64,000 nt of DNA from Pseudomonas sp. GM78 (lineage in GTDB: Bacteria > Pseudomonadota > Gammaproteobacteria > Pseudomonadales > Pseudomonadaceae). Under the pieces are notes generated by a model. It saw nothing but the letters and a program-made list of their open reading frames with translations, was not told where the DNA came from and searched no databases. This document shows, piece by piece, positions 10,653 through 61,274 of this stretch (the first letter of the stretch is position 1; each line of letters begins with the position of its first letter). A program made the position numbers and the translations under genes. The stretch covers positions 1 to 64,000 of the forward strand of contig NZ_AKJF01000198.1 in the NCBI RefSeq assembly GCF_000282475.1, given 5' to 3'.

Positions 10653-11542
10653 TGTACCAGAGCCTGCTCAAGTCCTTGAACCGCTTCAATCCCCGGGCCT
10701 GGGATTTCATTCAGCTGACGCGCATGGACAAGCCGATCGGCATCTACCTGCTGCTCTGGCCGACGCTCTGGGCGCTGTGGATTGCCGGCAAGGGCTCGCC
10801 ATCGCTGGCCAATATCGTGATTTTCGTCCTTGGCGTGGTGCTGACCCGCGCGGGCGGCTGCGTGATCAATGACTGGGCGGACCGCAAGGTCGACGGCCAT
10901 GTGAAACGCACCGAGCAGCGCCCACTGCCGAGCGGCAGGATCAGCTCCAAAGAAGCGCTGGTGTTCTTTGCATTGCTGATGGGCCTGAGTTTCCTGCTGG
11001 TGCTGTGCACCAATGCGGCAACAATCTGGCTGTCGTTTGGTGGCTTGGCCCTGGCCTTCACTTATCCGTTCATGAAGCGCTACACCTATTACCCGCAAGT
11101 GGTGCTGGGCGCGGCGTTTTCCTGGGGCATGCCGATGGCCTTCACCGCCGAGACTGGCGAACTGCCGGCGGCGGCGTGGCTGCTGTGGATCGCTAACCTG
11201 ATGTGGACGGTGGGCTACGACACTTATTACGCGATGACCGACCGCGACGACGATTTGAAGATCGGCGTGAAATCCACGGCGATCCTGTTTGGTGAGGCAG
11301 ACCGGGTGATTATCCTGACCCTGCAAGGGTTGGCATTAGGTTGTCTGCTGCTGGCCGGGTCGAAATTCGAGCTCGGCGGCTGGTTCCATCTGGGACTGAC
11401 GGTGTCGGCGGGCTGTTTTGCATGGGAGTTCTGGTACACCCGCAGCAAGGACCGGATGCGCTGTTTCAAGGCGTTCTTGCACAACCACTGGGCCGGAATG
11501 GCGATTTTTGTCGGGATTGTGCTGGATTACGGGTTGCGCTAA
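10652..11542 (+). CDS. ubiA: UbiA, 4-hydroxybenzoate octaprenyltransferase
   Basis: 296-residue integral membrane prenyltransferase that attaches the polyprenyl tail to 4-hydroxybenzoate. About eight hydrophobic segments are visible. The two aspartate-rich motifs binding Mg-prenyl diphosphate are present: [10 protein letters not shown] and [14 protein letters not shown] longer upstream frame (from 10457) runs through ubiC in another phase and was rejected. A terminator lies 10 bases after the stop. Confidence 0.96.
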
Positions 11543-11551
11543 AACGACGAC

Positions 11552-11570
11552 TGCCCCGCAAAGCGGGGCA
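11552..11570 (+). terminator. Short hairpin terminator after ubiA
   Basis: Eight-bp GC-rich stem TGCCCCGC / GCGGGGCA with an AAA loop, 10 bases after the ubiA stop. The following bases (ATCAAA) lack a good T-run, so it is a weak plus-strand terminator; the convergent gene ends 20 bases later. Confidence 0.6.
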
Positions 11571-11590
11571 ATCAAACCGGGCCGAATCCG

Positions 11591-11977
11591 TTACTTCTGC
11601 GATTCGTGAACGACGTGCCAGACGTCCTTCATTTTGTCGCCCTTCATTTCTCCAGGCTTTTCATCTTTTACAAACGTATAAAGCGGCTTGCCGTCGTAAG
11701 CGTATTGACTGGTACCGTCATCGCGCTTGATCACGCTCCACTTGCCTGTAGCCGCGGCACCCGCCGGCGCCATCATCGGTGGCCAGTTCTTGGCGCACTC
11801 GTCATTACACATCGACTTGCCGCCTGAGTCCTTGTCGAATGTGTACAGGGTCATTCCCTTATGGTCGACCATCATGCCGTCCTTCATCATCGCGGGGTCG
11901 GCGGCGAAGGCCATGGTCGGCAGCGTTAGCGCAGCAGTTACCAGCAAAGCCTTCCAGGATTGAGCAATGTGTTTCAT
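11591..11977 (-). CDS. COG4315-type secreted repeat protein
   Basis: 128 residues with a clear signal peptide (cleavage after about residue 25, MAFA-AD). The mature part has two copies of a lipoprotein-type repeat containing GMTLYTFDKD and GKPLYTFVKDEKPG, with a CNDECAKNWPP segment that may form a disulfide. Function of this family is unknown; exported location is inferred from the signal. It is divergent from phoB and shares its upstream region, but the Pho box is oriented toward phoB. Confidence 0.75.
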   Translation of the reverse strand: MKHIAQSWKALLVTAALTLPTMAFAADPAMMKDGMMVDHKGMTLYTFDKDSGGKSMCNDECAKNWPPMMAPAGAAATGKWSVIKRDDGTSQYAYDGKPLYTFVKDEKPGEMKGDKMKDVWHVVHESQK

Positions 11978-47108: not shown

Positions 47109-48074
47109 TCACCCCAACCGACAGCCGTCCAGGCCTTTTTTCAGCCCCTCGACATTCTGCTGCTCACTAAAAATAAGCTCAATCCGCGAATCTTGCCGCC
47201 ATTCGCTGCTTTTCCATTCCAGTACCGCGTTATCCAGCGCATTCACCGACACCCAACCTCCGACGCTGTGGATAACCAACTTGGCCCGCCGCCATTCAAG
47301 GCCTGCGAGCCACCGAGCGATCCGGTCAGTGTCAAAGGTCTGGCCCGGATGCCAGCGCCAACCAATGCTCCAGCCGCCCTCCTGCCCCTGGCTCAAGCAA
47401 ATCGGCAGCGTCGGATCCATCCAGATCGCCGGCAACTGCGCCAGCCCCTTGGGCGCCACGAAGTTATCCACACCCGCCACCGCCTGAGCGTCCAGGCCAG
47501 GCAATTGGCTCAATGGCAAGGCCGCGTGGTGCGTCCAGTACAACGGGCGAAGCGGCAACTGCGCGACGAGGCGTTGGCGAGCGGCTTCATCAAGGTGTTC
47601 CGACTTGTTCATCAGCAACAGACCGGCACTCTCAAGCGCCTCCTGTTGCGCCGACGGTAGCGGCTTGCCAGCAGCAAGCGCCTGGGCGTCGAGGACCAGA
47701 ACGCAAGGCTGGACACTCAGGACACCTTGCCACGGCGCTTCACGCAACTGCCGAAGCAACTGCGCCGGATGCCCCAGCCCGGACGGCTCGATGAACAGTC
47801 GATCCGGTCGCGCCTTGCGCAGCAAACGCCCGAGGCCGATCTGAAACGGCGCACCGTTGACGCAACACAAACAGCCCCCGGCCACTTCACCCAGTGCGAT
47901 ACCATCGGCATCACGGGTCAACAAGGCAGCGTCGATACCGATCTGCCCGAATTCATTGATCAACACCGCCCAACGCTCACCAGCGGGACGTTGCGCCAGC
48001 AGGTGCCTGATCAGGCTGGTCTTGCCGGCCCCCAATGGCCCGGCGATGACATGGGTGGGTATGTTCTGCAACAT
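47109..48074 (-). CDS. COG0523 GTPase (CobW/YjiA-like)
   Basis: 321 residues from ATG 48074. Walker A GPLGAGKTS, the metal-binding GGCLCC motif that marks COG0523 metallochaperones, and MNKSEHLD (NKxD guanine motif) are intact. The C-terminal CobW_C domain follows (from about 215). It is distinct from the nearby ZigA-like protein; the metal is unknown, but zinc is suggested by context. It is divergent from the next gene with only 26 bases between starts, and no Zur-like site is evident there. Confidence 0.9.
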   Translation of the reverse strand: MLQNIPTHVIAGPLGAGKTSLIRHLLAQRPAGERWAVLINEFGQIGIDAALLTRDADGIALGEVAGGCLCCVNGAPFQIGLGRLLRKARPDRLFIEPSGLGHPAQLLRQLREAPWQGVLSVQPCVLVLDAQALAAGKPLPSAQQEALESAGLLLMNKSEHLDEAARQRLVAQLPLRPLYWTHHAALPLSQLPGLDAQAVAGVDNFVAPKGLAQLPAIWMDPTLPICLSQGQEGGWSIGWRWHPGQTFDTDRIARWLAGLEWRRAKLVIHSVGGWVSVNALDNAVLEWKSSEWRQDSRIELIFSEQQNVEGLKKGLDGCRLG

Positions 48075-48100
48075 GATCGAAGATGTCTTGGGAGGTAAGG

Positions 48101-48457
48101 ATGCGGTGGATAGGCATGTCATTGCTGCTGGCGCTCAATAGCGGAGAGGCGCTGGCCCAGGCTTGCGTGGTCCACAGTCAGGCGGAACGGCTGGACGTGA
48201 AAGTTTGCCAGCAAAACCGCAACATTCCGCAAAAACTCTTTGCCGAAGGCTTCTGCCAGCCCAGCCTTGCAGGGCAGAAAGTCGAGGTGCAGTACGTCGA
48301 CCAATGCCCTGGTGGGGCGTTCGGCGTGTGCAGCAACGCCCAAGTCGCCAATATGCCTTACCGGCAGGATATTCACTATTACGGCGTAGCCACGGATGCG
48401 GCGTATTTGCAGCCGTTTTGCGAAGCCCAGAGCCAGGGCACCTGGCTCAAGCCTTGA
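48101..48457 (+). CDS. Hypothetical exported cysteine-containing protein
   Basis: 118 residues from ATG 48101, preceded by GGGAGGTAAGG. Signal peptide (about 1-20, ending ALA-QA). The mature part contains six cysteines (ACVV, VCQQ, GFCQPS, DQCPGG, VCSNA, PFCEA), suggesting three disulfides. No family recognised beyond conserved pseudomonad homologues beside COG0523 genes (PA5534-like). It is convergent with zigA (4 bases apart). Location next to zinc genes is the only hint of function. Confidence 0.8.
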   Translation: MRWIGMSLLLALNSGEALAQACVVHSQAERLDVKVCQQNRNIPQKLFAEGFCQPSLAGQKVEVQYVDQCPGGAFGVCSNAQVANMPYRQDIHYYGVATDAAYLQPFCEAQSQGTWLKP

Positions 48458-48460
48458 GGG

Positions 48461-49666
48461 TCAAGCAACCTCTTCATACCAAGGGCCGAACGGATCAGGC
48501 AACGAGCACCAGCTCTCTGTTCCCAGCGCCATCTCTTCATCGCTCAACAGACAATCGGCGAGCTCGTCGGCAAGCTGCGTGAAATCGATGTTTTGGCCGA
48601 TGAACACCAGTTCCTGCCGGCAATCCCCGCTATCAGCGTCCCAGTTCTGCAGGATGGCGGCGGTGCTTTCCTGGTCCTGCGGCCACTGGTCCTTCGGCAC
48701 GAAACGCCACCAGCGCCCGGCAAAACCATAACGCATCATCCCACCGGCCTGGGACCAGCTGCCGGCGTCGGTGTGTTTGCTCGCCAACCAGAAGAAACCC
48801 TTGGAGCGCAGCAGCTTGCCATTGAGCCACGGGCCGTCGATGAAATTGAAGAAGCGCTGCGGATGGAAGGGACGACGCGCGCGGTAGGCGTAGGACGCGA
48901 TGCCATATTCTTCGGTTTCCGGCACATGTTCGCCGCGCAGCTCCTGCAACCAGCCCGGTGCCTGCGCCGCTTTCTCGAAGTCGAAGCGACCGGTATCGAG
49001 GATCTTCTCCAGCGGTACTTCACCCATGACCATCGGGATGATCTGCGCCTGAGCGTTGAGGCGCTTGAGGATTGCCGTCAGCTCCTCGCGTTCGCGGCTG
49101 CTGATCAAGTCGATCTTGCTGATCAGGATGACGTCGGCGAATTCGATCTGCTCGATCAACAAATCGGTGATCGCCCGCTCATCCCCCTCCCCCAGCGTTT
49201 CGCCACGGGAAGCCAGGGTTTCGGCCGCCTGGAAGTCGAGCAGGAAATTCATGCCATCGACCACGGTGACCATGGTGTCGAGCCGGACGATGTCGGTGAG
49301 GCTTTGGCCGTTTTCATCGCGAAAGGTAAATGTCTCTGCCACTGGCAGCGGTTCTGAAATGCCGGTTGATTCGATCAACAGGTAATCAAAACGACCCTCC
49401 CGGGCCAGCGAGCTAACCTCCTTCAGCAAGTCTTCACGCAACGTGCAGCAGATGCAGCCGTTGCTCATTTCCACGAGTTTCTCTTGCGCACGATTGAGAC
49501 TGACATCGCGCTGGACCTCGCTGCCGTCGATGTTGATTTCACTCATGTCGTTGACGATGACAGCAACGCGTAGGCCATTTCTATTACGTAGTATGTAATT
49601 AAGAAGTGTACTCTTTCCGGCTCCAAGAAAGCCCGAAAGGACGGTCACGGGAAGGCGATTTGACAT
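48461..49666 (-). CDS. zigA: ZigA-like COG0523 zinc metallochaperone GTPase
   Basis: 401 residues. Walker [24 protein letters not shown] (metal-binding CxCC), and guanine motif LISKIDL are present, with a C-terminal CobW_C domain (about 260-375, [16 protein letters not shown]). ZigA-type proteins are thought to supply zinc to essential enzymes under starvation. It is divergent from folE2 and shares a Zur box. Length and sequence fit the zinc-regulated subgroup. Confidence 0.92.
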
Positions 49667-49713
49667 CAGAGGTTCCTCACAGGGCCATTCATCAAAAATC
49701 TATCGTTGAGTTG

Positions 49714-49730
49714 ATGTTATAATATAACAT
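49714..49730. promoter_or_regulatory. Zur operator between zigA and folE2
   Basis: ATGTTATAATATAACAT is a perfect 8+1+8 inverted repeat matching the core of the gammaproteobacterial Zur consensus (GTTATANTATAAC). It lies 47 bases before the zigA start and 31 before the folE2 start, so it can repress both when zinc is sufficient. Confidence 0.92.
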
Positions 49731-49760
49731 TGCAATCACACTTCCACGATGGATATCCTC

Positions 49761-50657
49761 ATGAACGCGCTGACTCTCCCGGACATCGCCACGCAGGCCT
49801 CACGGCAAGCCCTGCCACTGGAGTGGGTGGGCATGTGTGGCATTGCTCTTCCTGTTTTGCTCGAAGGCAAAAAATCGCCTGCAACGGCCGATGCCGGCGT
49901 GAGTCTCGATAACGGCGAGGCACGCGGTATTCATATGTCGCGGTTGTACCTGGCGCTGGAAACGCTCGAGCAAGAGCCGCTCACACCCAAGCTGCTGCGA
50001 CGGGTTTTGCACCATTTCCTGAGCAGTCACGAAGGGCTGTCAAACAACGCCTACTTGAACATTCACACCGATCTGCTGCTGAAAAGACAGGCACTGCTCA
50101 GTCCTTTGGCCGGCTGGAAAAGCTATCCCGTCAGCATCGAAGCCCGATTGAAAAACCAGATGTTCCACGTGGAACTTAAAATCGCACTGCCTTATTCCTC
50201 AACCTGTCCTTGTTCAGCCGCGCTTTCCCGGCAACTGATTCAGCAGCAATTCGTCGATGATTTTGCCAACCGGACATTGCATCACGCCGAGTTGCTGGCT
50301 TGGCTCGGCTCCCCTGACGGCATCGTCGCGACACCGCACAGTCAACGCAGCACGGCGCAATTGAGTCTGCGTTTGCATGAGTGTGTGGATGAGTTGCCAC
50401 TGATCGCAGTCATCAACGATACCGAGGCTGCGCTCGGCACCGCGGTGCAGACCGCCGTCAAGCGCGCTGACGAACAGGCGTTCGCCTTGGCCAATGGACA
50501 GAACCTGATGTTTTGCGAGGACGCCGCTCGACGCCTGAACCTGGCCCTGAAACGCTCACCCGGCATCAGCGGCTTCCAGATACGGGTCATCCACGCTGAA
50601 AGCCTGCATGCCCACGATGCCGTCGCTGAAAGTCGCTGGAACTGGGAGGCCGCCTAA
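49761..50657 (+). CDS. folE2: FolE2, zinc-independent GTP cyclohydrolase IB
   Basis: 298 residues from ATG 49761 (MNALTLPDIATQ); an ATG 12 bases upstream is possible. It makes 7,8-dihydroneopterin triphosphate for folate and tRNA queuosine synthesis, using metals other than zinc and so replacing FolE when zinc is scarce. The PYSSTCPCSAALSRQ segment holds the catalytic Cys. A parS site is embedded at 50161-50176 and a 41-codon frame overlaps its stop. Confidence 0.96.
   Translation: MNALTLPDIATQASRQALPLEWVGMCGIALPVLLEGKKSPATADAGVSLDNGEARGIHMSRLYLALETLEQEPLTPKLLRRVLHHFLSSHEGLSNNAYLNIHTDLLLKRQALLSPLAGWKSYPVSIEARLKNQMFHVELKIALPYSSTCPCSAALSRQLIQQQFVDDFANRTLHHAELLAWLGSPDGIVATPHSQRSTAQLSLRLHECVDELPLIAVINDTEAALGTAVQTAVKRADEQAFALANGQNLMFCEDAARRLNLALKRSPGISGFQIRVIHAESLHAHDAVAESRWNWEAA
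50161..50176. promoter_or_regulatory. parS site within folE2
   Basis: TGTTCCACGTGGAACT contains the 14-bp palindrome GTTCCACGTGGAAC and matches the Pseudomonas parS consensus TGTTCCACGTGGAACC at 15 of 16 bases. It should bind ParB for chromosome segregation. Confidence 0.88.
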
Positions 50658-50852: not shown

Positions 50853-51743
50853 ATGATCCAGATCACTCTGCCCGATGGTTCATTGCGTGAATACGATCAA
50901 CCGCTGTCCGTTCATGAGGTTGCCGCGAGTATTGGCCCCGGGCTGGCCAACGCTGCGGTAGCGGGTCGGGTGGACGGCTTGTTGGTGGACTGTGAGTTTG
51001 TGATCCGGGCCAATGCCAGGGTCAGCATCGTTACGCCCCAGGAACCCGACGGCCTGGAGATTCTCCGGCGCTCCTGTTCGCTGGTGCTGGCGATGGCGGT
51101 CAAGCAATTGCATTCCCATACTCAATTGCGAACCGGCTCGGCGCTGGGTGACGGGTTCTATTGCGAGTTCACTGTCGAGCGCCCAATCAGGACCGCTGAT
51201 TTGCCGCTGATCGAAGCGCGCATGCACTCATTGGCGGCGGCCAACCATTCGATTCGCCGCAATCGCAGTCACTCCCCGTCTTGCGCCGACCTGTCGCTGT
51301 ATCGCCTCGCAGACACCGACTATTTGACGAGCGGCCCGCATGTCCCCACCACCAGGGTCTTGCAGGCGTTTGCCCTCGATCACATCAACGGGACCTTGCA
51401 GCAACGCATCTATGGCACCTGTTGGTCGAGCCCCCAGGAGTTGCAGCATTGGCGCCTGCCGGCCCATGTGGTGGTTGTCAGCATGGATGACCGGCAGGCG
51501 AGCTACGCCCACGCGGTCACCGAACGCCTGCGCCGCAGCGGCGTACGCGCCCTGGCGGACCTGCGTAACGAAAAAGTTCGCCACAAGATTCGCCATCACA
51601 GTCAGACGGTGCCGTACCTGGTGGTGATCGGCGAACAGGAAAAGGTTGGCGGGTATGTCAGCGTGCGCAATCGCAACGGGGAGGATTTTGGCAGGATGAA
51701 GGTTGAGGCGGTGTGTGAGTGGTTGGGTCAGTCGGGGATTTGA
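50853..51743 (+). CDS. Threonyl-tRNA synthetase-like protein lacking the catalytic core
   Basis: 296 residues against about 640 for ThrRS. An N-terminal TGS domain (1-62) and the N2 editing-type domain (about 65-190, ending IYGTCWSSPQELQHW) are followed directly by the anticodon-binding domain (about 203-296, MDDRQASYAHAVTERL, ADLRNEKVRHKIR). The class II catalytic domain with motifs 1-3 and the zinc ligands is absent, and the reading frame is intact across the junction. Editing residues matching E. coli H73, H77 and C182 are L77, M81 and T159; only the H186 equivalent (H163) remains. It cannot charge tRNA and probably cannot edit. Paralogues of thrS are known near zinc-regulated genes. Confidence 0.85.
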   Translation: MIQITLPDGSLREYDQPLSVHEVAASIGPGLANAAVAGRVDGLLVDCEFVIRANARVSIVTPQEPDGLEILRRSCSLVLAMAVKQLHSHTQLRTGSALGDGFYCEFTVERPIRTADLPLIEARMHSLAAANHSIRRNRSHSPSCADLSLYRLADTDYLTSGPHVPTTRVLQAFALDHINGTLQQRIYGTCWSSPQELQHWRLPAHVVVVSMDDRQASYAHAVTERLRRSGVRALADLRNEKVRHKIRHHSQTVPYLVVIGEQEKVGGYVSVRNRNGEDFGRMKVEAVCEWLGQSGI

Positions 51744-52466: not shown

Positions 52467-53906
52467 ATGGATTATTTTGGACCGCATGTCTTCGGCTATG
52501 TCATCGCCCTGCTGCACTCATTGGGCTTGGTTGCGGCAATCCATGCCGTGTTGACCGTCCGCACCGCACAAGGCTCGATTGCCTGGGCCTTGTCACTGTT
52601 GTTCATGCCTTACCTGACACTTATCCCCTATCTGGTATTCGGCCGCAGTTCCTTCGACGGTTACATCAAGGCTCGGCGCCAGGCCAACGAGGAGATGCGC
52701 AAGGCTGTCTCCGAGCTCAACTGGCGGCCGTGGGTGGAGGAAGCACTCACCGCTCGCGCATCCAGCGCGTACGCGTCTCTGAGGGCGATGCCGAAACTGG
52801 GGCGCATGCCCTGTCTGGCAAACAATGAAGTGCGCTTGCTGGTGAATGGGCAGGCAACCTTCGAGGCGGTTTTCCACGCCATCAGCCAGGCCCGGGAAGC
52901 TGTACTGGTCCAGTTCTTCATCATCCACGACGACCGCCTGGGCCGACGCCTGCGTGATTTACTGCTGCACAAGGCCAGCGAAGGCGTGGTGATTTACCTG
53001 CTCTACGACCGAATCGGCAGCCACTCCCTGCCCCACGCTTACGTCCAGTCGCTGCGCGATGGCGGCGTCAAGGTCAAAGCCTTCGCCACCCGCAGCGGCT
53101 GGCTCAATCGCTTCCAGGTCAACTTTCGCAACCACCGCAAGATCGTGGTTGTCGACGGCATCCTTGGCTTCGTGGGTGGCCACAACGTTGGCGATGAATA
53201 CATGGGCGAGAAACCACCGCTGGCACCGTGGCGCGATACCCATGTGCAGGTCCGGGGGCCGGTGGTGGCCTGCATGCAGGAGTCCTTCGCCGAAGACTGG
53301 TTCTGGGCGGCCCGCGAATTACCGCAGCTGATCCTGCCGCAGGTTTATCCGGACGGCGGAGTGCTGTGCCAAATGCTTGCCAGCGGCCCGGCGGATGCCT
53401 ACGAAACCTGCTCACTGTTCTTCGTCGAAGCGATTCACGCGTCGACCGAACGGGTGTGGATCACCAGCCCGTATTTCATCCCCGATGAAGCGGTGCTCGC
53501 TGCGTTGCGATTGGCAGTCTTGCGCGGGGTGGATGTGCGGATTCTGCTGCCGTCACGGCCCGACCACCGAATCGTCTACGCCGCTTCCAGCCTCTATGCC
53601 TTCGAAGCCGTGCGCGCCGGTGTGCGGGTGTTCCGCTACGAACCCGGTTTCCTGCATCAGAAAGTGGTGTTGATCGACAGTGAAATCAGCGCCATCGGTA
53701 GCGCCAACATGGACAACCGTTCGTTTCGATTGAATTTCGAAGTGATGTTACTGACGGTCGACAGGGCGTTCGCCGCCCAGGTGGAGCAGATGCTCAACGA
53801 CGACTTCGACCAGGCTCATGAAATCGCCAAGGAAGAAGGCCGGGAGACCCATCGCTTGCAGCAGGTCGGCATGCGGGTCGCCCGGCTTATTTCGCCCATC
53901 CTCTAG
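52467..53906 (+). CDS. cls: Cardiolipin synthase
   Basis: 479 residues. Two N-terminal membrane segments (about 8-30 and 38-58) precede two phospholipase-D motifs: [17 protein letters not shown] and [23 protein letters not shown]. It joins two phosphatidylglycerols to cardiolipin in the inner membrane. Its stop TAG shares CTAG with the stop of the convergent cfa gene. Confidence 0.95.
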
Positions 53907-55087
53907 GGATTGTAGATATCGTCTCGCGTCCACGGCAGCTCATGGCTGCCATCGGCGTGGGCCTTCACCGCGAGTATCTGGTGCAGGTTGATCCAGCCAC
54001 GAGCGAACGCATAGGCACAACCGGCCAGGTACAGGCGCCAGATACGCAGGGCTTGATCCGGCACCAGTTTCGAGGCGGCCTCCAGGTTGTCTTCCAGGCG
54101 TTCGCTCCAGTGATCCAGGGTGCGCGCGTAATGCAGACGCAGGCTCTCGACATCGACGATCTCCAGCCCTGCTTCACTGATCTCGGCAGAGATCATCGAC
54201 AGGTGGGGCAGTTCGCCGTTGGGGAATACATACTTCTCGATGAACTCCCCGGCACCGCGTCCCACAGGACGCCCATCGATGTGCTTGGCGGTGATCCCGT
54301 GGTTCATCACCAGCCCGCCCTCTTTCACCGCGCCGAACAAGGTTTTGCAATACTCGGCCAGGTTCGCGTGCCCGACGTGCTCGAACATACCGACACTGAC
54401 CACTTTGTCGAAGCGACCGTCTTGAGGCAGGTCGCGGTAATCGAGTAACTGCAGTTCGATCAAATCCTCCAGCCCTTCCGCTTTTACGCGTTCCCGGGCC
54501 AGGGCCAGTTGTTCCTTGCTGAGGGTAATACCGAACACCTTCGCGCCAAATTCCCGGGCTGCATACCGCGCCAACCCGCCCCAACCGCAGCCGACATCCA
54601 GCAGATATTCGCCAGGTTGCAGACGCAACTTGCGACACAGATGGCGGAATTTTGCCTGTTGAGCCTGTTCAAGGGATTCACTTCCCGTCTCGAAATACGC
54701 GCAGGAATACGCCATGTCGCTGTCGAGCCACAGTTGATAAAAGGCGTTTGAGAGGTCGTAATGGTAGGAGATCGCCTTGGCGTCTGCTTCCTTGTCGTGG
54801 GCGGTGCGCACAGGCTGACTGTCGAGATCACCGAGCAATGCCTGACTCCACTCATCACAGACGCGGATCACATCGCTGATGGAACCTTCCAGTTCCAGTT
54901 TGCCCTCGACGAACGCAGCCCCTAGCGCGTCCAGGCTAGGATGGGTGAACTGGGTGACCATTTGTGGGTCCTTGACCACAATTGTGACACTGGGCGTCGG
55001 CCCCAGATTGAACTCATGGCCGTCCCAGAGTCGCAGGCGTAGCGGTAGCTGCAGATTCTGTAAGGCCGGTGGAAGTTGCGCGAGCAT
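53903..55087 (-). CDS. cfa: Cyclopropane-fatty-acyl-phospholipid synthase
   Basis: 394 residues. SAM-binding motif [20 protein letters not shown], the conserved [26 protein letters not shown] substrate segment and [13 protein letters not shown] are present. It adds a methylene bridge to unsaturated membrane lipids, protecting cells in stationary phase. It is convergent with cls, another lipid-modifying gene, with a 4-base stop overlap. Confidence 0.95.
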
Positions 55088-55255: not shown

Positions 55256-57169
55256 TTAAAACGGCTGTTCCCTGAGCTTGAACAGTGGCTCCTGAAAGCG
55301 CAGCAAACGCCCGGCATTACCCAACACCAGCAATGTGCTGAGGTTATGCAGCAACGCGGCGATCATCGCCCCTGCTGCCCCGAGCCAGCCAAACGCCGCG
55401 AAAGCAACGATCGCCAAGGTCCAGCCCAATCCAATGATCACGTTCACTTGCAAGGTCTGACGGCATTGTCGACTCAAGCGCACGCAGGTGCCGAGGCGCC
55501 GCAGGTCGCTACCGATCAGCACGATATCCGCTGACGCCAGCGCGATGTCCGCCCCGCCTGCCCCCATTGCCACACCAACAACACCAGCCTTGAGCGCCAG
55601 GGAATCGTTGATGCCATCGCCCACCACCATAGGACGAAAACCGTTACCGATTTCTTTCAACACGCGATTCAATTTGTCCTCGGGCAAGGCCTGCGCTTCG
55701 ACTTCACTGATGCCGACATCCCGAGCAAGTGTGTGAGCGACGCTGTGCCGGTCGCCGGTGAGCAAAAGCTGTCGGCCCAATCCAAGGTCCTTCAGCTCGC
55801 TCAAGGCAAACCTGGCTTCCGGTTTGACGCTGTCGGCCAACAACAGCCAAGCGAGAAACTCACCGTTAAGCGCCAGCCCGGCAATCGGGCCATCGTGGTC
55901 GGGAACATCTGAGGTCGCTATGCCCAATTGGGCGAACAACTCCGGGCGCCCCAGCGCGGCCTCGCCCTGCTCCGTCATGGCAACCACGCCTAAACCCTGA
56001 CGCTCTCGAATGTCCGACAGCAACAGAAAATGCTCTTGTGACACCAGCCCCGCCAGCGCCCGGCTGACCGGGTGACTGCTGGCGGAACCGAGGCTGGCGG
56101 CGAGCTTCAAGACCGGGTTGCGATCCTCCAGCGAGCTCTCGATGGATTGCAGGCGCAAGGTACCGAAGGTCAGGGTTCCGGTCTTGTCGACCACCAGCGA
56201 TGTGAGGTCTGCCAGCTCCTCGAGAAACGCCGAGCTGCGAATCAGAATGCCGTGCCGCGCGGCTACCGCTACCCCGGCAATGGCCGTTGCGGGTGCCGAC
56301 AACACCAACGCACAAGGACAGGCAGCCACCAGCACCGCGAGCATGGCCTGGGCATCGTTGGTGATGAACCAGGTGACTGCGGCCAGCAGCAATACCAGCA
56401 CCAGGTAGCTCCCGGCATAACGCTCCAGCAACCGGGTGATCGGCGGCTTGGAACGCTCGGCGTTTTGCATCAGCGCGATCACTTTGCCGAGGGTCGATTC
56501 GTCGCCGGTCCGAGTCACTTCAACGCGCAGCAGGCCATCGAGATTGATCGCCCCACCGAACACCGCCATGCCGACGCCCGCTTCCATCGGCACCGATTCA
56601 CCGGTAATGGAGGCGGTGTCCAGACTCGCTTGGCCGGACATCACCCGGCCATCCGCCGGCACCCGGTCACCGGCACGGACTTCCACCAGATCGCCAGCCC
56701 TGAGCGTACCGTTGTCGACCTCGACGATGGCGCCGTCGGCCTGCACCTTGCGCGCGTGACTGCGGGTGAGTTTGCCCAGGGCATGAATGGCTTCCTGCGA
56801 ACCGATCACGCTGCGCTCTTCCAGCACATGGCCGAAGATCATGATGATCGGCAGCAATGCCGCCGTCAGCAAATCGCCCGTCCCCCACGCACCGAGCATG
56901 GCCAGGGCGATCAGTTGATCGGTGATGCCATGCAGGCTTGGATACCGCAGGCTGTACCAGGCCGAACGCATCACTGGTACGGCCACCAGCACGGAAGCAA
57001 CACCCAGCAGCAATTGGCTGACGCCACTTTGCTCCGGGGACAACCAGCGCCATACAAGGCCAAGCGCGAGCAAGCCAAGTGCGAGCATGGCCAGGGTCAG
57101 TTGACGGGCAGCGCTGCGTTGTTCGGCCGAGGACAACATGCTCGGTGCAGCGGCGGTTTGAGCGGTCAT
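55256..57169 (-). CDS. hmtA: P1B-type metal-transporting ATPase (HmtA-like)
   Basis: 637 residues. About eight membrane segments; metal-site CPC at residues 284-286, DITGES-type TGES at 189-192, phosphorylated Asp in DKTGTLT (D328), SHP motif and GDGINDSLAL hinge are present. No N-terminal HMA domain is seen. PAO1 HmtA (PA2435), a copper/zinc importer, is associated with SPFH genes, as here, so import of zinc is the leading inference; sequence alone cannot give direction. It overlaps the hflC-like gene by 4 bases. Confidence 0.88.
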   Translation of the reverse strand: MTAQTAAAPSMLSSAEQRSAARQLTLAMLALGLLALGLVWRWLSPEQSGVSQLLLGVASVLVAVPVMRSAWYSLRYPSLHGITDQLIALAMLGAWGTGDLLTAALLPIIMIFGHVLEERSVIGSQEAIHALGKLTRSHARKVQADGAIVEVDNGTLRAGDLVEVRAGDRVPADGRVMSGQASLDTASITGESVPMEAGVGMAVFGGAINLDGLLRVEVTRTGDESTLGKVIALMQNAERSKPPITRLLERYAGSYLVLVLLLAAVTWFITNDAQAMLAVLVAACPCALVLSAPATAIAGVAVAARHGILIRSSAFLEELADLTSLVVDKTGTLTFGTLRLQSIESSLEDRNPVLKLAASLGSASSHPVSRALAGLVSQEHFLLLSDIRERQGLGVVAMTEQGEAALGRPELFAQLGIATSDVPDHDGPIAGLALNGEFLAWLLLADSVKPEARFALSELKDLGLGRQLLLTGDRHSVAHTLARDVGISEVEAQALPEDKLNRVLKEIGNGFRPMVVGDGINDSLALKAGVVGVAMGAGGADIALASADIVLIGSDLRRLGTCVRLSRQCRQTLQVNVIIGLGWTLAIVAFAAFGWLGAAGAMIAALLHNLSTLLVLGNAGRLLRFQEPLFKLREQPF

Positions 57170-58224
57170 TGTGCAGCTCCCTGAATGATCAGGCGGGAAT
57201 CGTCTTTTGGATCAACCGTGGTGACTGAGCCGGCCTGACCAAGAATTTTCGGCATCCGCTCGCGGTAAATTCGCAGCAACATTTGCGGGTCGGCGGCCTG
57301 TTGTTGGGCGTTGGCCAAGCTCATTACCGTAGCGGTATCAGCCGATGCTTTCGCCAGCCGTTCACTCGCTTGAGCATGGGCGACTTGCAGCGTGCGGTCG
57401 GCTTGCTCATTGGCGGTCTGGCTCAGCTTCTCGGCTTCGGTGCGCGCGTTGGCCACGGCCTTGTCGGCTTGCTGGCTGGCGGTCAGTACGGCGTTGAACG
57501 CATTGATCGCAGGGGCCGGCAGACTCGACTGCACGTCGACCCGTGCCACTTCGATCCCCAGCCCCTGCCCCGTCGCGGCCAATTGCGCCAAGCGTTGGTT
57601 GATGCCTTGCACCAGATCGCCGCGCAGACGCTCGCGCCTTTCTGCAGCCTGATTATCAGCGCCGATCAACTCCGGTCGGGCGACCAGAATAGTGTCCAGA
57701 TCTCGTGCAGCAGTGAGTGCCAAGGCGCTGCGGGTCACCAGGCGATCGAGGGCCGGCAGCACATGCTCGCCTTGAAGCACGAAAGCGTACGGCTCAGTGA
57801 CCTTGTAGAACACCCGCACATCCAGTTGCACCACACCGGCATCCCCCGTCAGCAAATAACCGGAGCCTGCCAGTGCGTCACTGATCGGTGTCGCAAAACT
57901 GGCCGCGCGATCGGCCTGCAATGCGGCGTCGGTGCGCAACAGGTTTTCCACTCGACGTTCGATTACCCGGTCCGCCGCTGGCAGCAAAATCACCTGCTCA
58001 AAAGGTCGCGGCCAGGCCAACATCAAACCGGCATTCTGGATGCGATCCAGCGCGCCGAAGTGCAAAACCACCGCGCGATTTTGCGGATCGATCTGTCGAA
58101 CATTGGAGAACGCCCATGCCAAAGCGGCCAACACCGTCACCGCATACAGGGCGAGAAATGCCAAGCGCCCGGCCTGAATCCACGGGCTGCTCAACTCAAT
58201 TGTTCCACGTGGAACCAAACTCAT
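57166..58224 (-). CDS. SPFH-domain membrane protein (HflC-like)
   Basis: 352 residues. One N-terminal membrane segment (about 18-42), then the SPFH/band-7 domain (about 42-240), a helical tail with Ala/Gln-rich coiled coil (about 240-300) and a C-terminal part. Annotated elsewhere as protease modulator HflC, but no FtsH gene is near and the context is metal transport. It overlaps both neighbours by 4 bases, a tightly coupled operon. Codons 4-8 contain a parS site. Confidence 0.85.
   Translation of the reverse strand: MSLVPRGTIELSSPWIQAGRLAFLALYAVTVLAALAWAFSNVRQIDPQNRAVVLHFGALDRIQNAGLMLAWPRPFEQVILLPAADRVIERRVENLLRTDAALQADRAASFATPISDALAGSGYLLTGDAGVVQLDVRVFYKVTEPYAFVLQGEHVLPALDRLVTRSALALTAARDLDTILVARPELIGADNQAAERRERLRGDLVQGINQRLAQLAATGQGLGIEVARVDVQSSLPAPAINAFNAVLTASQQADKAVANARTEAEKLSQTANEQADRTLQVAHAQASERLAKASADTATVMSLANAQQQAADPQMLLRIYRERMPKILGQAGSVTTVDPKDDSRLIIQGAAQ
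58201..58216. promoter_or_regulatory. parS site within the hflC-like gene
   Basis: TGTTCCACGTGGAACC is an exact match to the Pseudomonas parS consensus. It overlaps codons 4-8 (encoding VPRGT) of the hflC-like gene. Confidence 0.92.
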
Positions 58225-59261
58225 GGCTGCGACCCGGGTTTGTTATCGAGCGTCGGCGGACCGTCAACCAACACCCGGAAAGGCGCGGCATCGGTACGCA
58301 GTATCAGTTTGGTGCCCGGGGTGATCACCGTGCCCAAGGTGTCGAGCGAGCGCAGCAGGTTGTAAAGCTGCGGTGAGCCGGCGTAGGCACGCGCATAAAT
58401 CTGCGCCGCTTCGACCCGGGATTGCGCCTCAATGTCAGCCGCTTTCACCGTGGCATCGGCCTGGACGATTCGTGCATCACGTTCCGCCGCGGAGCGAATT
58501 TGCGCCGCTTCGCGCTTGCCGATGGCGGTGCGTTCGGTCGCGATGGTTTCACGCTCGGCGCGCATGCGATCGACCGTCGCAGTGAGCGTGACCGACGGCA
58601 AGGTCAGGCGCTCGATGCCAACTTGCAGCACTCGCACACCATAGGTGGTCAGCAACTGCTGATCGATTTGGTTGCGCAGCTGAGCTTCGAAATCAGCGAT
58701 GTGCACCTGATTGGCGTCGGTGTTCACCAGGTTCGCCAGATCGAAACTACTGGCCGTGGTTTCCAGGGCGGAGCCGACGAAGGTGCGGATCTGCCGAGCC
58801 GCCTCGTCCGGTTGGTTTTGTACCGCGCGCATGAAACGCTGCACGTTGTCCGCATCACCCTGCACCTGCCAGGCCACGTAGGCCTGAACGATGATGCGCA
58901 AGCCGTCCCGCGTCCCCACATCCTGCAAACCGCTGGACGTGGTGCGCAGTCGCAGATCTACCGGGATCGCCGCTTCGAAGGGTGCCGGCCAGCGCCAACC
59001 AAGGCCTGGCTCCAGCAACACTCGCGATGGGTTACCAAACCGCGTGATGACCGTGGCTTCGCCCGAACGCACTTGCACCAGGCTCGCAGCCGCCACGGCA
59101 AACGCCACCAACAACGCCGCCCAGCCCATGCGTCGCCAAGGGAATGGGCCGGCTTCTTGCGGATCGCCGTGGTGGTGATGGTGATGGCCGTGGTGATGTC
59201 CGCCATGGCCGTGATCGTGGCCACGGTGGTCGGCGTGATCGTGGGTGTGTGATTGGCTCAA
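58221..59261 (-). CDS. SPFH-domain membrane protein with histidine-rich N-terminus (HflK-like)
   Basis: 346 residues. Residues 1-33 carry 16 histidines, a likely metal-binding tail. One membrane segment (about 47-68) is followed by an SPFH domain (about 68-260) and an Ala/Glu-rich coiled coil (about 235-300). The His-rich part is on the cytoplasmic side if topology follows HflK. It overlaps neighbouring genes by 4 bases on both ends. With the other SPFH proteins it may form a membrane cage around the ATPase; this is inference. Confidence 0.85.
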   Translation of the reverse strand: MSQSHTHDHADHRGHDHGHGGHHHGHHHHHHGDPQEAGPFPWRRMGWAALLVAFAVAAASLVQVRSGEATVITRFGNPSRVLLEPGLGWRWPAPFEAAIPVDLRLRTTSSGLQDVGTRDGLRIIVQAYVAWQVQGDADNVQRFMRAVQNQPDEAARQIRTFVGSALETTASSFDLANLVNTDANQVHIADFEAQLRNQIDQQLLTTYGVRVLQVGIERLTLPSVTLTATVDRMRAERETIATERTAIGKREAAQIRSAAERDARIVQADATVKAADIEAQSRVEAAQIYARAYAGSPQLYNLLRSLDTLGTVITPGTKLILRTDAAPFRVLVDGPPTLDNKPGSQP

Positions 59262-61222
59262 TTGGCGGCTCCTGGCTGAGCGGTTTTACGCGGCGGCGCA
59301 GGGTCAGCCGGCAACGTGAATGTACGCAGGTCAATGGTCGGCGCATTACTGCTGCCGCCCAGACGATGATCGAGAACCAGCAACCTGGCATTGGCCAGGC
59401 CCTGGGAAAGTTGACCGAGGTATTGCTCCAGCACGAAGGCCTGGCCGGCACTGGCGTAAGCCTTTTTCTCGGCGCTGAATTTCAGCTCGCCGGCCTTGGC
59501 CGTCGCGTTGATTTCATGGGCAGTCGCCGTTGCCTGATCCCGGGCAATGCTCGCCTGCAACTGCGCCTGGTTGGTGGCTTCGGCGGCGGCTCCACGTTCA
59601 CGGGCGATCAACGCCTGTGCACCGATCTGTGCGGCTTGCACCCCGTGATAAGCATTGGCCGCCCCCGCCGGGGGATGAATCGCTTCGACCACCGTGGCGA
59701 GAATTTCCACGCCGCTGTCGAGTTTCTGCAGGTCGGCCTGCACGGCCCGGCCGATTTCCTCGGCGAGCCCTACCCGGTCCTCACCGAGCAAACCGTCAAG
59801 GGTTCGTGAGGCGAAGTCGTGGACCAGAATGCGACTGGCGGTGCTGCGGATCAACGTCGGCACATCCGCGCTGTTGTAGGTCGCCGCCAATGCCGCCTGA
59901 TCGCTCAAGCCGATGCGATAAACAAAACGCACGTCCATGTTGACGATCTGAAAGCTCTGCTTGTCGGCACGGCTGCTGGCAATCACCTGGGATTTGTCAT
60001 TCACATGGCTGGCGTCCCACAACCGGTTGGCGGTCGTCGGCGCCGGGCCTTCGGCCGGATCTGCCTGCACGGGTGCCGACGTTTCGCCGACGCTGGTGGC
60101 CAATTCGTGAACCACTCCATTTTCGACACTCAGCACCCGGCCCAACGGCCACGGTAAACCTGCATGCAGACCCGGACCGAACACCATCACCGGTTTGCCG
60201 AAACGCTCGTAGATCCCCCGCCCTTGCAGCGGAATTTCGTGAACACCGGTGAGTGACCAACCGACGATGGCCACAACGACCAGCACCGGAAAAAATGCCC
60301 GGCGCATGTAAGTGAAGGCCCAAATCTGCCGCAGGTCGATGCCGAAGCGGTTGTGCAATTCGTGCTGCAACGCCTGCAATGGTTGCGGCGGCCAGCGCAG
60401 CATATCGGCGACAAAACTGCGCGCCAGCAGTGCAGGTTCAAGTTGTTCGCGACGTGGGCTGAACAATGACAGTACGGCACGAAGTAGTAATTCGAAGGCG
60501 ACGAACCCCGGCAGCAGGCCGATCAGTACCGCCAGACGCACCGGCCAAACCGACGTTTCATTGCCGAACAACAGGCAAAACGCTCCAAGTATCAGGCTGA
60601 TGATTGCCACGCGGGTCAATTGGGCCAAGGCTCCCGCCTCGGGCCATTGAGCGCTGTTTTCCTGGGCAAGCTGACGCTCCAGAACCAGCAAGCCAAAGGC
60701 CAGCAATAACCCCAGGGCCGCGCCGATGGTGGCCGACATTCCCAGCGCTGCAGGCGGCAAAGCAAGGTTCCAGGCCTGCTCGACGCACAACAACGCCAGC
60801 AGCGCCCAACCACCCAGCCACAGCGTTGGCGCACCGATTTGCCTGAGTAGCTTCAGCCAGCGCTGACTGATTCGCTCCAGCAGCCGCTCGTACCAACCCA
60901 CCGGGACTTCAGCTTCTTCAGAGTCGACCACCGGCGCCAAGGGGTTCATCGCCCTTGAACGCCATTGCGTCACCCACCCGGCGGATTGCAAGCCAGCGAC
61001 CAACACCAGCAACGCGGCGCACTGATTGAACAGCAGGGCAGGCCAAAGGGATTGCGGCGCAAACAACTCGACAAAAAAGCCCAGCACCAGGCCCATTGCC
61101 GCGAACGCGCCGAGGCCGATGGCGAACTGGCGCAATCGTCGCCCTTGAAAAACTGCCTGCTGAAAGCGCGGCAGCCTGGCTACCTGCGCTCCATCATCAC
61201 CCTCTTCGAGATCGACTTGCAT
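59258..61222 (-). CDS. Large SPFH-domain membrane protein, first gene of the metal operon
   Basis: 654 residues from ATG 61222, which has TGGAG 5-6 bases upstream; a GTG at 61249 is in frame. An N-terminal polytopic part with about six membrane segments (roughly 30-240) precedes another membrane segment (about 310) and the SPFH domain (about 330-540), then a coiled-coil tail. The architecture, an SPFH domain fused to a multi-pass membrane part, is unlike HflK or HflC. It is the first gene of the operon; a Zur-like site lies 35 bases upstream. Confidence 0.82.
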   Translation of the reverse strand: MQVDLEEGDDGAQVARLPRFQQAVFQGRRLRQFAIGLGAFAAMGLVLGFFVELFAPQSLWPALLFNQCAALLVLVAGLQSAGWVTQWRSRAMNPLAPVVDSEEAEVPVGWYERLLERISQRWLKLLRQIGAPTLWLGGWALLALLCVEQAWNLALPPAALGMSATIGAALGLLLAFGLLVLERQLAQENSAQWPEAGALAQLTRVAIISLILGAFCLLFGNETSVWPVRLAVLIGLLPGFVAFELLLRAVLSLFSPRREQLEPALLARSFVADMLRWPPQPLQALQHELHNRFGIDLRQIWAFTYMRRAFFPVLVVVAIVGWSLTGVHEIPLQGRGIYERFGKPVMVFGPGLHAGLPWPLGRVLSVENGVVHELATSVGETSAPVQADPAEGPAPTTANRLWDASHVNDKSQVIASSRADKQSFQIVNMDVRFVYRIGLSDQAALAATYNSADVPTLIRSTASRILVHDFASRTLDGLLGEDRVGLAEEIGRAVQADLQKLDSGVEILATVVEAIHPPAGAANAYHGVQAAQIGAQALIARERGAAAEATNQAQLQASIARDQATATAHEINATAKAGELKFSAEKKAYASAGQAFVLEQYLGQLSQGLANARLLVLDHRLGGSSNAPTIDLRTFTLPADPAPPRKTAQPGAAN

Positions 61223-61257
61223 ACCACTCCAGTGTTTATCATGGCCCACACGGCATT

Positions 61258-61274
61258 TCGTTACGATATAACGA
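61258..61274 (-). promoter_or_regulatory. Zur-like operator upstream of the SPFH/ATPase operon
   Basis: On the minus strand TCGTTATATCGTAACGA: inverted TCGTTA/TAACGA arms with 5-base centre, the same geometry as the folE2 box. The core GTTATATCGTAAC matches GTTATANTATAAC at 10 of 12 defined positions. Confidence 0.65.

Follow-up and report, generated by a model that had tools for sequence, protein, structure and literature searches.

A 64,000-nucleotide stretch of Pseudomonas sp. GM78 (contig NZ_AKJF01000198.1, positions 1 to 64,000; the window) carries on its minus strand, at 55256-61222, four genes in series that encode three SPFH-domain proteins (SPFH1, SPFH2 and SPFH3) and a P1B-type ATPase with a CPC motif, each gene sharing four bases with the next. 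The reading that best explains our observations, and that we consider likely, is that the four proteins form one zinc-starvation machine in which a divergent metal pump has an SPFH assembly of its own as its partner. An SPFH/ATPase cluster of this kind is already known from P. aeruginosa; set against the published accounts (here and below, statements about them refer to the portions of the articles that were accessible), what is added is the tight pairing of the genes, a residue signature in the ATPase, an exchangeable histidine-rich tail and copies of the cassette on plasmids.

The four genes very probably constitute one functional unit. Among 199 genomes sampled from the genus, 118 encode the ATPase (E up to 1e-150), the identical 118 encode SPFH1 (E up to 1e-60), and 81 have neither; this compares with a report of the SPFH trio in just two of ten other Pseudomonas species (PMC13086221), a narrower sample of the genus than ours. 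In a phylum-wide sample of 398 genomes, which overlaps with the first, the ATPase (E up to 1e-90) occurs in 11 genomes and full-length SPFH1 in the same 11, with neither in the remaining 387. At the thresholds used, no genome in either sample has the ATPase or SPFH1 alone; seven weak SPFH1 matches, confined to the SPFH part (20-28% identity, E 2e-14 to 1e-10), were excluded from the cassette count, the SPFH1 match of one genome (G034) is split in two pieces, and stops are marked inside some matches of the genus sample. The phylum-wide searches found the pair in two genomes from a different genus of the family, and five distant loci have all four genes in the same order. Distances between pairs of loci run closely in parallel for the four proteins (r 0.94-0.97, 435 pairs), and the closest ATPase among the matches listed is that of P. 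umsongensis (97% identity).

Relatives of SPFH1 were also found on 10 plasmid records. Five of these loci were examined, four by annotation and the fifth by tblastn, and all five hold the complete, ordered cassette: one each from Klebsiella aerogenes, Paraburkholderia sprentiae and Burkholderia ubonensis and two from Rhizobium, with ATPase identity falling as low as 56%. The identical distribution, the presence of these cassettes in other families and the histidine-rich tail that can stand on either partner (see below) together lend strong support to the working partnership between SPFH proteins and ATPase that an earlier note on this DNA had proposed; among the matches listed, we found no such proposal in the accessible literature on the cluster. 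The Paraburkholderia cassette has a zinc ATP-binding cassette (ABC) transporter gene set nearby. Among 20 proteins scanned around the five distant loci, no zinc-uptake gene was recognised, and a zinc-binding dehydrogenase and a CNNM/CorC-type protein were present. As separate observations, two of the five plasmids, K. aerogenes pYD-K10_1 (L230) and B. ubonensis pMSMB2035 (L232), are typed as conjugative and have transposase genes within a few kb of the cassette, and open reading frames of the same length follow the ATPase gene in two loci from one family of the class (L145, 4715-6052; L146, 5180-6517), the L145 product being of CNNM/CorC type.

The ATPase shares the P1B core with its best solved relatives, ZntA (4umv, E 2e-70) and sCoaT (7qbz, E 1e-71). 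Its CPC motif is as in ZntA; a Pfam scan found no HMA domain in it, and its first hydrophobic stretch starts near residue 21. In an alignment of 105 rows, the columns of the ZntA M2 glutamate (which we take to be Glu202), Lys693 and Asp714 hold Thr102, Thr584 and His608 in every row, and the column of sCoaT Glu658 holds Asn609 in every row. These four residues are also kept in all four plasmid copies compared, down to the lowest identity, with Ser611 replaced by Gly in two of the four; Asp99, which lies a helix turn away from Thr102, is invariant as well. Lys693 and Asp714 of ZntA form a built-in counterion pair, and His657 and Glu658 of sCoaT are comparable (PMC8880997). As a control, the ZntA-like pump encoded elsewhere in this genome (L002; NCBIfam PRK11033, 555 bits) keeps Glu, Lys and Asp at the corresponding positions. 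Where P1B-2 (ZntA-type) pumps have Glu in M2, Lys in M5 and Asp in M6, the ATPase thus has Thr, Thr and His, and in place of the SPC and HEGxT motifs of P1B-4 (CoaT-type) pumps it has CPC and H-N-x-S-T. By these motifs the ATPase belongs to a separate P1B branch, neither ZntA-type nor CoaT-type.

SPFH2 begins with a tail rich in histidine. With a tail defined as at least eight histidines in the first 60 residues, it is found in 81 of 83 loci, in all 20 further loci and in three of the four plasmid copies, while the HflK and HflC proteins of the same genome, taken as controls, have none and one, respectively. On the Klebsiella plasmid SPFH2 has just two histidines and it is the N-terminus of the ATPase that has five; both proteins are His-rich in the copy from Rhizobium tumorigenes. 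Because the tail is able to sit on either protein, this pattern suggests a shared site of action for SPFH2 and the ATPase, at the cytosolic side of the membrane.

Control of the four genes by zinc starvation is, we believe, highly probable. The earlier note had placed the operon behind an inverted repeat with Zur geometry. A conserved Zur-like box, GTTATATCGTAAC, is indeed there; what changed is the start of the first gene. The open reading frame of SPFH1 was called at 59258-61249 (663 residues from GTG 61249; Band_7 E 4e-19), but the start is probably ATG 61222 (protein start MQVDL), which is preferred because GGAG begins 8 bases upstream of it. The box differs at two positions from GTTATANTATAAC, which we take to be the Zur consensus. 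A site with at most two mismatches to that consensus is found in 80 of 85 upstream regions (79 and 5 relative loci plus the window), compared with 1.2% of random 180-bp windows from the same loci, and with 20 further loci included, 102 of 104 upstream regions have a site with at most three mismatches, as would members of a Zur regulon. In the alignment of the box, most rows of which are close relatives, the information per base is 1.75 bits, against 0.46 bits in the 3' flank and 1.18 bits in the 5' flank. L145 and L146, both from a different family of the class, retain the box.

About 6 kb from the operon lies a perfect palindrome, GTTATAATATAAC, which no other site of the genome equals in coming within one mismatch of GTTATANTATAAC. 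It stands between zigA and folE2; the operon of this species therefore sits beside a zinc-starvation cluster. That cluster spans 47109-50657 and contains a second CobW-family gene at 47109-48122. In P. fluorescens, FolE2 and two COG0523 proteins are listed as members of the Zur regulon (PMC2770081).

The published data on the corresponding P. aeruginosa cluster, PA2434-2439, are largely in line with such control. In a znuA mutant these genes rise 5.6- to 14.4-fold, with a predicted Zur site that is weak (PMC4542158); Zur binds the PA2439 promoter in a zinc-dependent manner in an electrophoretic mobility-shift assay (PMC8531726); and zinc depletion raises the cluster proteins, some of them significantly, in a preprint (PMC11761036) that also remarks on the closeness of HmtA to the genes for HflC and HflK. 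The claim of zinc-starvation control is thus upheld by the conserved box described here together with Zur binding, RNA sequencing and proteomics in P. aeruginosa. The two clusters are alike in joining genes for an HflK-family, an HflC, an HflC-family and a P-type ATPase protein under a link to Zur; zinc depletion induces that of P. aeruginosa, and probably that of the window. The likeness to the HmtA locus drawn in the earlier note holds, in that gene order and annotations match the PA2434-2439 rows of PMC4542158 and a P1B ATPase is encoded with HflK/HflC-family genes; the comparison is one of order and annotation rather than of HmtA sequence. Unlike PA2434-2439, which has further genes, the cluster of the window consists of four genes joined by 4-base overlaps. 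In a locus from another genus of the family (L142), an extra 150-codon open reading frame without a Pfam match (11142-11594) lies between the genes for SPFH3 and the ATPase, where it occupies the place of PA2436 in the P. aeruginosa numbering.

All three SPFH proteins belong to the SPFH/Band 7 superfamily, with Pfam Band_7 scores of 69.9 (SPFH1), 109.2 (SPFH2) and 66.7 bits (SPFH3) against a cut-off of 23.6. Among the subunits of the E. coli HflK/HflC-FtsH complex, SPFH2 matches HflC (E 3e-17), and SPFH3 and SPFH1 match HflK (E 4e-10 and 6e-6); PA2437, the counterpart of SPFH3 by order, is printed as HflC family. The NCBIfam scores stay below the cut-offs for HflK (SPFH1, 53 against 159.4 bits; SPFH3, 94 against 159.4) and HflC (SPFH2, 96 against 134.4), and the genome has a separate hflKC pair. 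As in HflKC, a membrane helix of SPFH1 is predicted to precede a periplasmic SPFH domain. In contrast to HflKC-FtsH, there are three subunits, SPFH1 has seven predicted helices, SPFH2 has its His-rich tail, and the linked gene encodes a P1B ATPase.

The structural model of SPFH1 has six well-predicted helices and a seventh ahead of the SPFH domain, and its loop charges are mostly positive-inside when the SPFH domain is placed in the periplasm, with one short predicted cytosolic loop free of positive charge. In predicted fold alone, residues 20-258 may be similar to CDF zinc transporters. Profile comparison gave no support for sequence kinship with CDF proteins (probability 0.7%). The metal site of CDF transporters is carried by their second and fifth helices. 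In the corresponding helices of SPFH1, neither His nor Asp is conserved at any position, and the only conserved Glu stands at the start of the fifth; the N-terminal part of SPFH1 thus differs from YiiP and ZnT in both sequence and metal-site residues. A periplasmic metal site in SPFH1 was considered and not used as evidence: six histidines are invariant in 82 rows, and in 36 rows five are invariant and one nearly so, but the model is too uncertain in this region (predicted local distance difference test score, pLDDT, mostly <80) to place them as a cluster, and one of them, H362, presumably lies in a usual SPFH motif. The FtsH-contact residue of HflK was likewise dropped, its numbering being uncertain. 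The model of SPFH2 is poor (mean pLDDT 58.4).

The mechanism that we propose starts from what was observed here, namely the order of the genes, the conservation of the box, the common distribution, the replaced residues and the tails, and borrows from P. aeruginosa the control by Zur and the uptake of zinc or copper that reviews report for HmtA. Zinc-loaded Zur would repress the operon, and as zinc falls all four proteins would be made together, probably by coupled translation. The divergent ATPase, which has no HMA domain and lacks the acidic and lysine release residues of ZntA, may carry zinc or perhaps copper through the inner membrane, and the three SPFH proteins may hold it within an HflKC-like assembly of their own at the periplasmic face. 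On the cytosolic face the His tail of SPFH2 could act in trans as a metal-binding tail for the ATPase; if the pump is an importer, this tail would catch zinc at the exit. The scaffold of the earlier note, which would load or protect the ATPase, is likewise hypothetical. The ring, the place of the ATPase within it, the direction of transport and the role of the tail are what we infer. Import is the direction that we modestly favour, and for an SPFH ring around the pump we find the case evenly balanced. The fullest version, in which a ring of three SPFH subunits, one with a CDF-like membrane domain, encloses an inward P-type ATPase above a ring of His tails, giving a scaffolded importer that moves as a cassette on conjugative plasmids among other routes, seems to us rather improbable.

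Other roles can be imagined for the same genes. The ATPase might export metal during zinc starvation, for example copper, a wrong metal liable to mismetallate zinc proteins, or zinc meant for periplasmic enzymes, with the SPFH assembly directing delivery. The SPFH2 tail does resemble the His-rich N-terminus of the ZntA-like pump L002, and a PCu(A)C copper chaperone gene adjoins the Paraburkholderia cassette; however, the Glu, Lys and Asp of ZntA-type exporters are replaced in all 105 rows, and HmtA overexpression raises intracellular zinc and copper according to a review (PMC10393844). We regard export as unlikely, though it deserves to be kept in mind. The SPFH proteins have also been read as modulators of FtsH (PMC9431628, PMC11761036), the former in a study where N-acetylcysteine induces the three SPFH genes and where hmtA is not named in the accessible text; they would then retune this zinc protease in zinc starvation, with the ATPase a mere neighbour behind the same promoter. 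The matches to the HflK and HflC families agree with this, but these matches fall under the NCBIfam cut-offs, the genome keeps its separate hflKC pair, and a mere neighbour would not be expected to be together with SPFH1 or absent with it throughout 199 and 398 genomes, which makes this role distinctly improbable. Finally, the three proteins might build a general membrane-microdomain scaffold that serves several transporters or lipids and has no specific hold on the ATPase. Such a role is commonly assigned to SPFH proteins (PMC13086221), and genes for cardiolipin synthase and cyclopropane fatty acid synthase adjoin the operon; yet distant loci swap their neighbours and keep the four genes, the constant partner being the ATPase, and we consider this scaffold very improbable.

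Returning to the zinc-starvation machine with its private SPFH assembly, several points weigh against it. Counts from related genomes are not independent events, and since the two genome samples also overlap, Fisher tests on the pairing overstate its significance; contact between SPFH proteins and ATPase is putative. The replaced residues argue against ordinary ZntA-like export, but they are no proof of import; P1B ATPases are usually efflux pumps, and the review that makes this point treats import by HmtA as unusual and asks for confirmation (PMC10393844). A His tail would suit an exporter too, and as called it is absent from SPFH2 at L066 and L089, the two exceptions among the 83 rows. As a single site, GTTATATCGTAAC is a weak match and no better than chance: GTTATNNNATAAC at no more than one mismatch has 45 sites in this genome, against 86 for the reversed control. 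This count alone would dismiss the box as a chance Zur site, and it was retained solely owing to its conservation among relatives. Two of the 104 upstream regions (L098 and L144) have no box at up to three mismatches, and none of the four plasmid loci scored has one at up to two mismatches within 400 bp. In P. aeruginosa, hmtA mRNA was low and added zinc did not repress it, which in the authors' view could mean that HmtA imports mainly copper (PMC8531726), and the review exempts hmtA from Zur control (PMC10393844), in conflict with the mobility-shift result.

The published SPFH deletion also bears on this balance. The PA2437-2439 trio has been named PaFlo5-7 in strain PA14, with horizontal transfer suggested (PMC13086221, 2026), and its deletion had only slight phenotypes: about 20% less biofilm, attenuation in Galleria and no essential role, with growth tested in LB. 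The statement in the earlier note that the role of the SPFH partners seems to lack a detailed description is accordingly in part outdated, the trio now being named and deleted, but the terms 'hmta' and 'p-type' are absent from the text of that study. The function of a joint machine could escape assays of the pump by itself and, likewise, deletions of the SPFH genes alone in rich medium. If the partnership is real, a bacterial SPFH assembly would gain a client other than FtsH, and together with the replaced export residues it makes import by HmtA testable.

Open reading frame calls and Pfam and NCBIfam domains agree on the gene content of the operon as first noted (Table 1). The overlaps read, in order, TTGA, ATGA and ATGA, and in the first set of relatives 4-base overlaps are likewise found in 76/84, 79/85 and 81/85 gene pairs. 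Rows were left out of the comparisons among relatives where SPFH1 had no open reading frame call (L099, at a contig end, and L092) or fell below the length filters, where SPFH2 was too short (L099 and L146), or where the ATPase was cut by a contig end (L184).

Table 1. Positions of the operon, its motifs and the nearby zinc-starvation genes in the window.
Feature	Position	Strand	Description
SPFH1 (HflK-like; PA2439 counterpart by order)	59258..61222	-	654 aa; seven predicted membrane helices, then predicted periplasmic SPFH domain
SPFH2 (HflC-like; PA2438 counterpart by order)	58221..59261	-	346 aa; one membrane helix; Band_7 E 3e-31
SPFH3 (best solved match HflK; PA2437 counterpart by order)	57166..58224	-	352 aa; one membrane helix; Band_7 E 3e-18
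P1B-type ATPase (PA2435/HmtA counterpart by order and type)	55256..57169	-	637 aa; E1-E2_ATPase E 9e-52; TIGR01525 E 4e-154
CPC motif of the ATPase, residues 284-286	56312..56320	-	in 105/105 rows and 4/4 plasmid copies
Trp583-Thr584 of the ATPase	55418..55423	-	Thr584 in column of ZntA Lys693
H-N-L-S-T of the ATPase, residues 608-612	55334..55348	-	His608 in column of ZntA Asp714; Asn609 in column of sCoaT Glu658
His-rich N-terminal tail of SPFH2, residues 5-31	59169..59249	-	predicted cytosolic
Zur-like box GTTATATCGTAAC	61260..61272	-	38-50 bp upstream of ATG 61222, the probable first-gene start
Perfect Zur-box palindrome GTTATAATATAAC	49716..49728	.	between zigA and folE2
zigA	48461..49666	-	zinc metallochaperone GTPase; NCBIfam NF038288 E 1e-203
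folE2	49749..50657	+	GTP cyclohydrolase FolE2; NCBIfam NF010200 E 4e-95

Two further features of the surroundings were noted. Downstream of the ATPase gene, in the region 52467-55087 of the window, lies cfaB, at a distance of up to 600 bp in 64 of 80 Pseudomonas loci and of about 2.2 kb at most in the other 16, with the cardiolipin synthase gene beyond it. Next to folE2, at 50853-51743, is a gene for a 296-residue protein whose match covers just a portion of threonyl-tRNA synthetase, with residues 199-291 aligned to its C-terminal part; paralogs of this synthetase are among putative Zur targets (PMC2770081).

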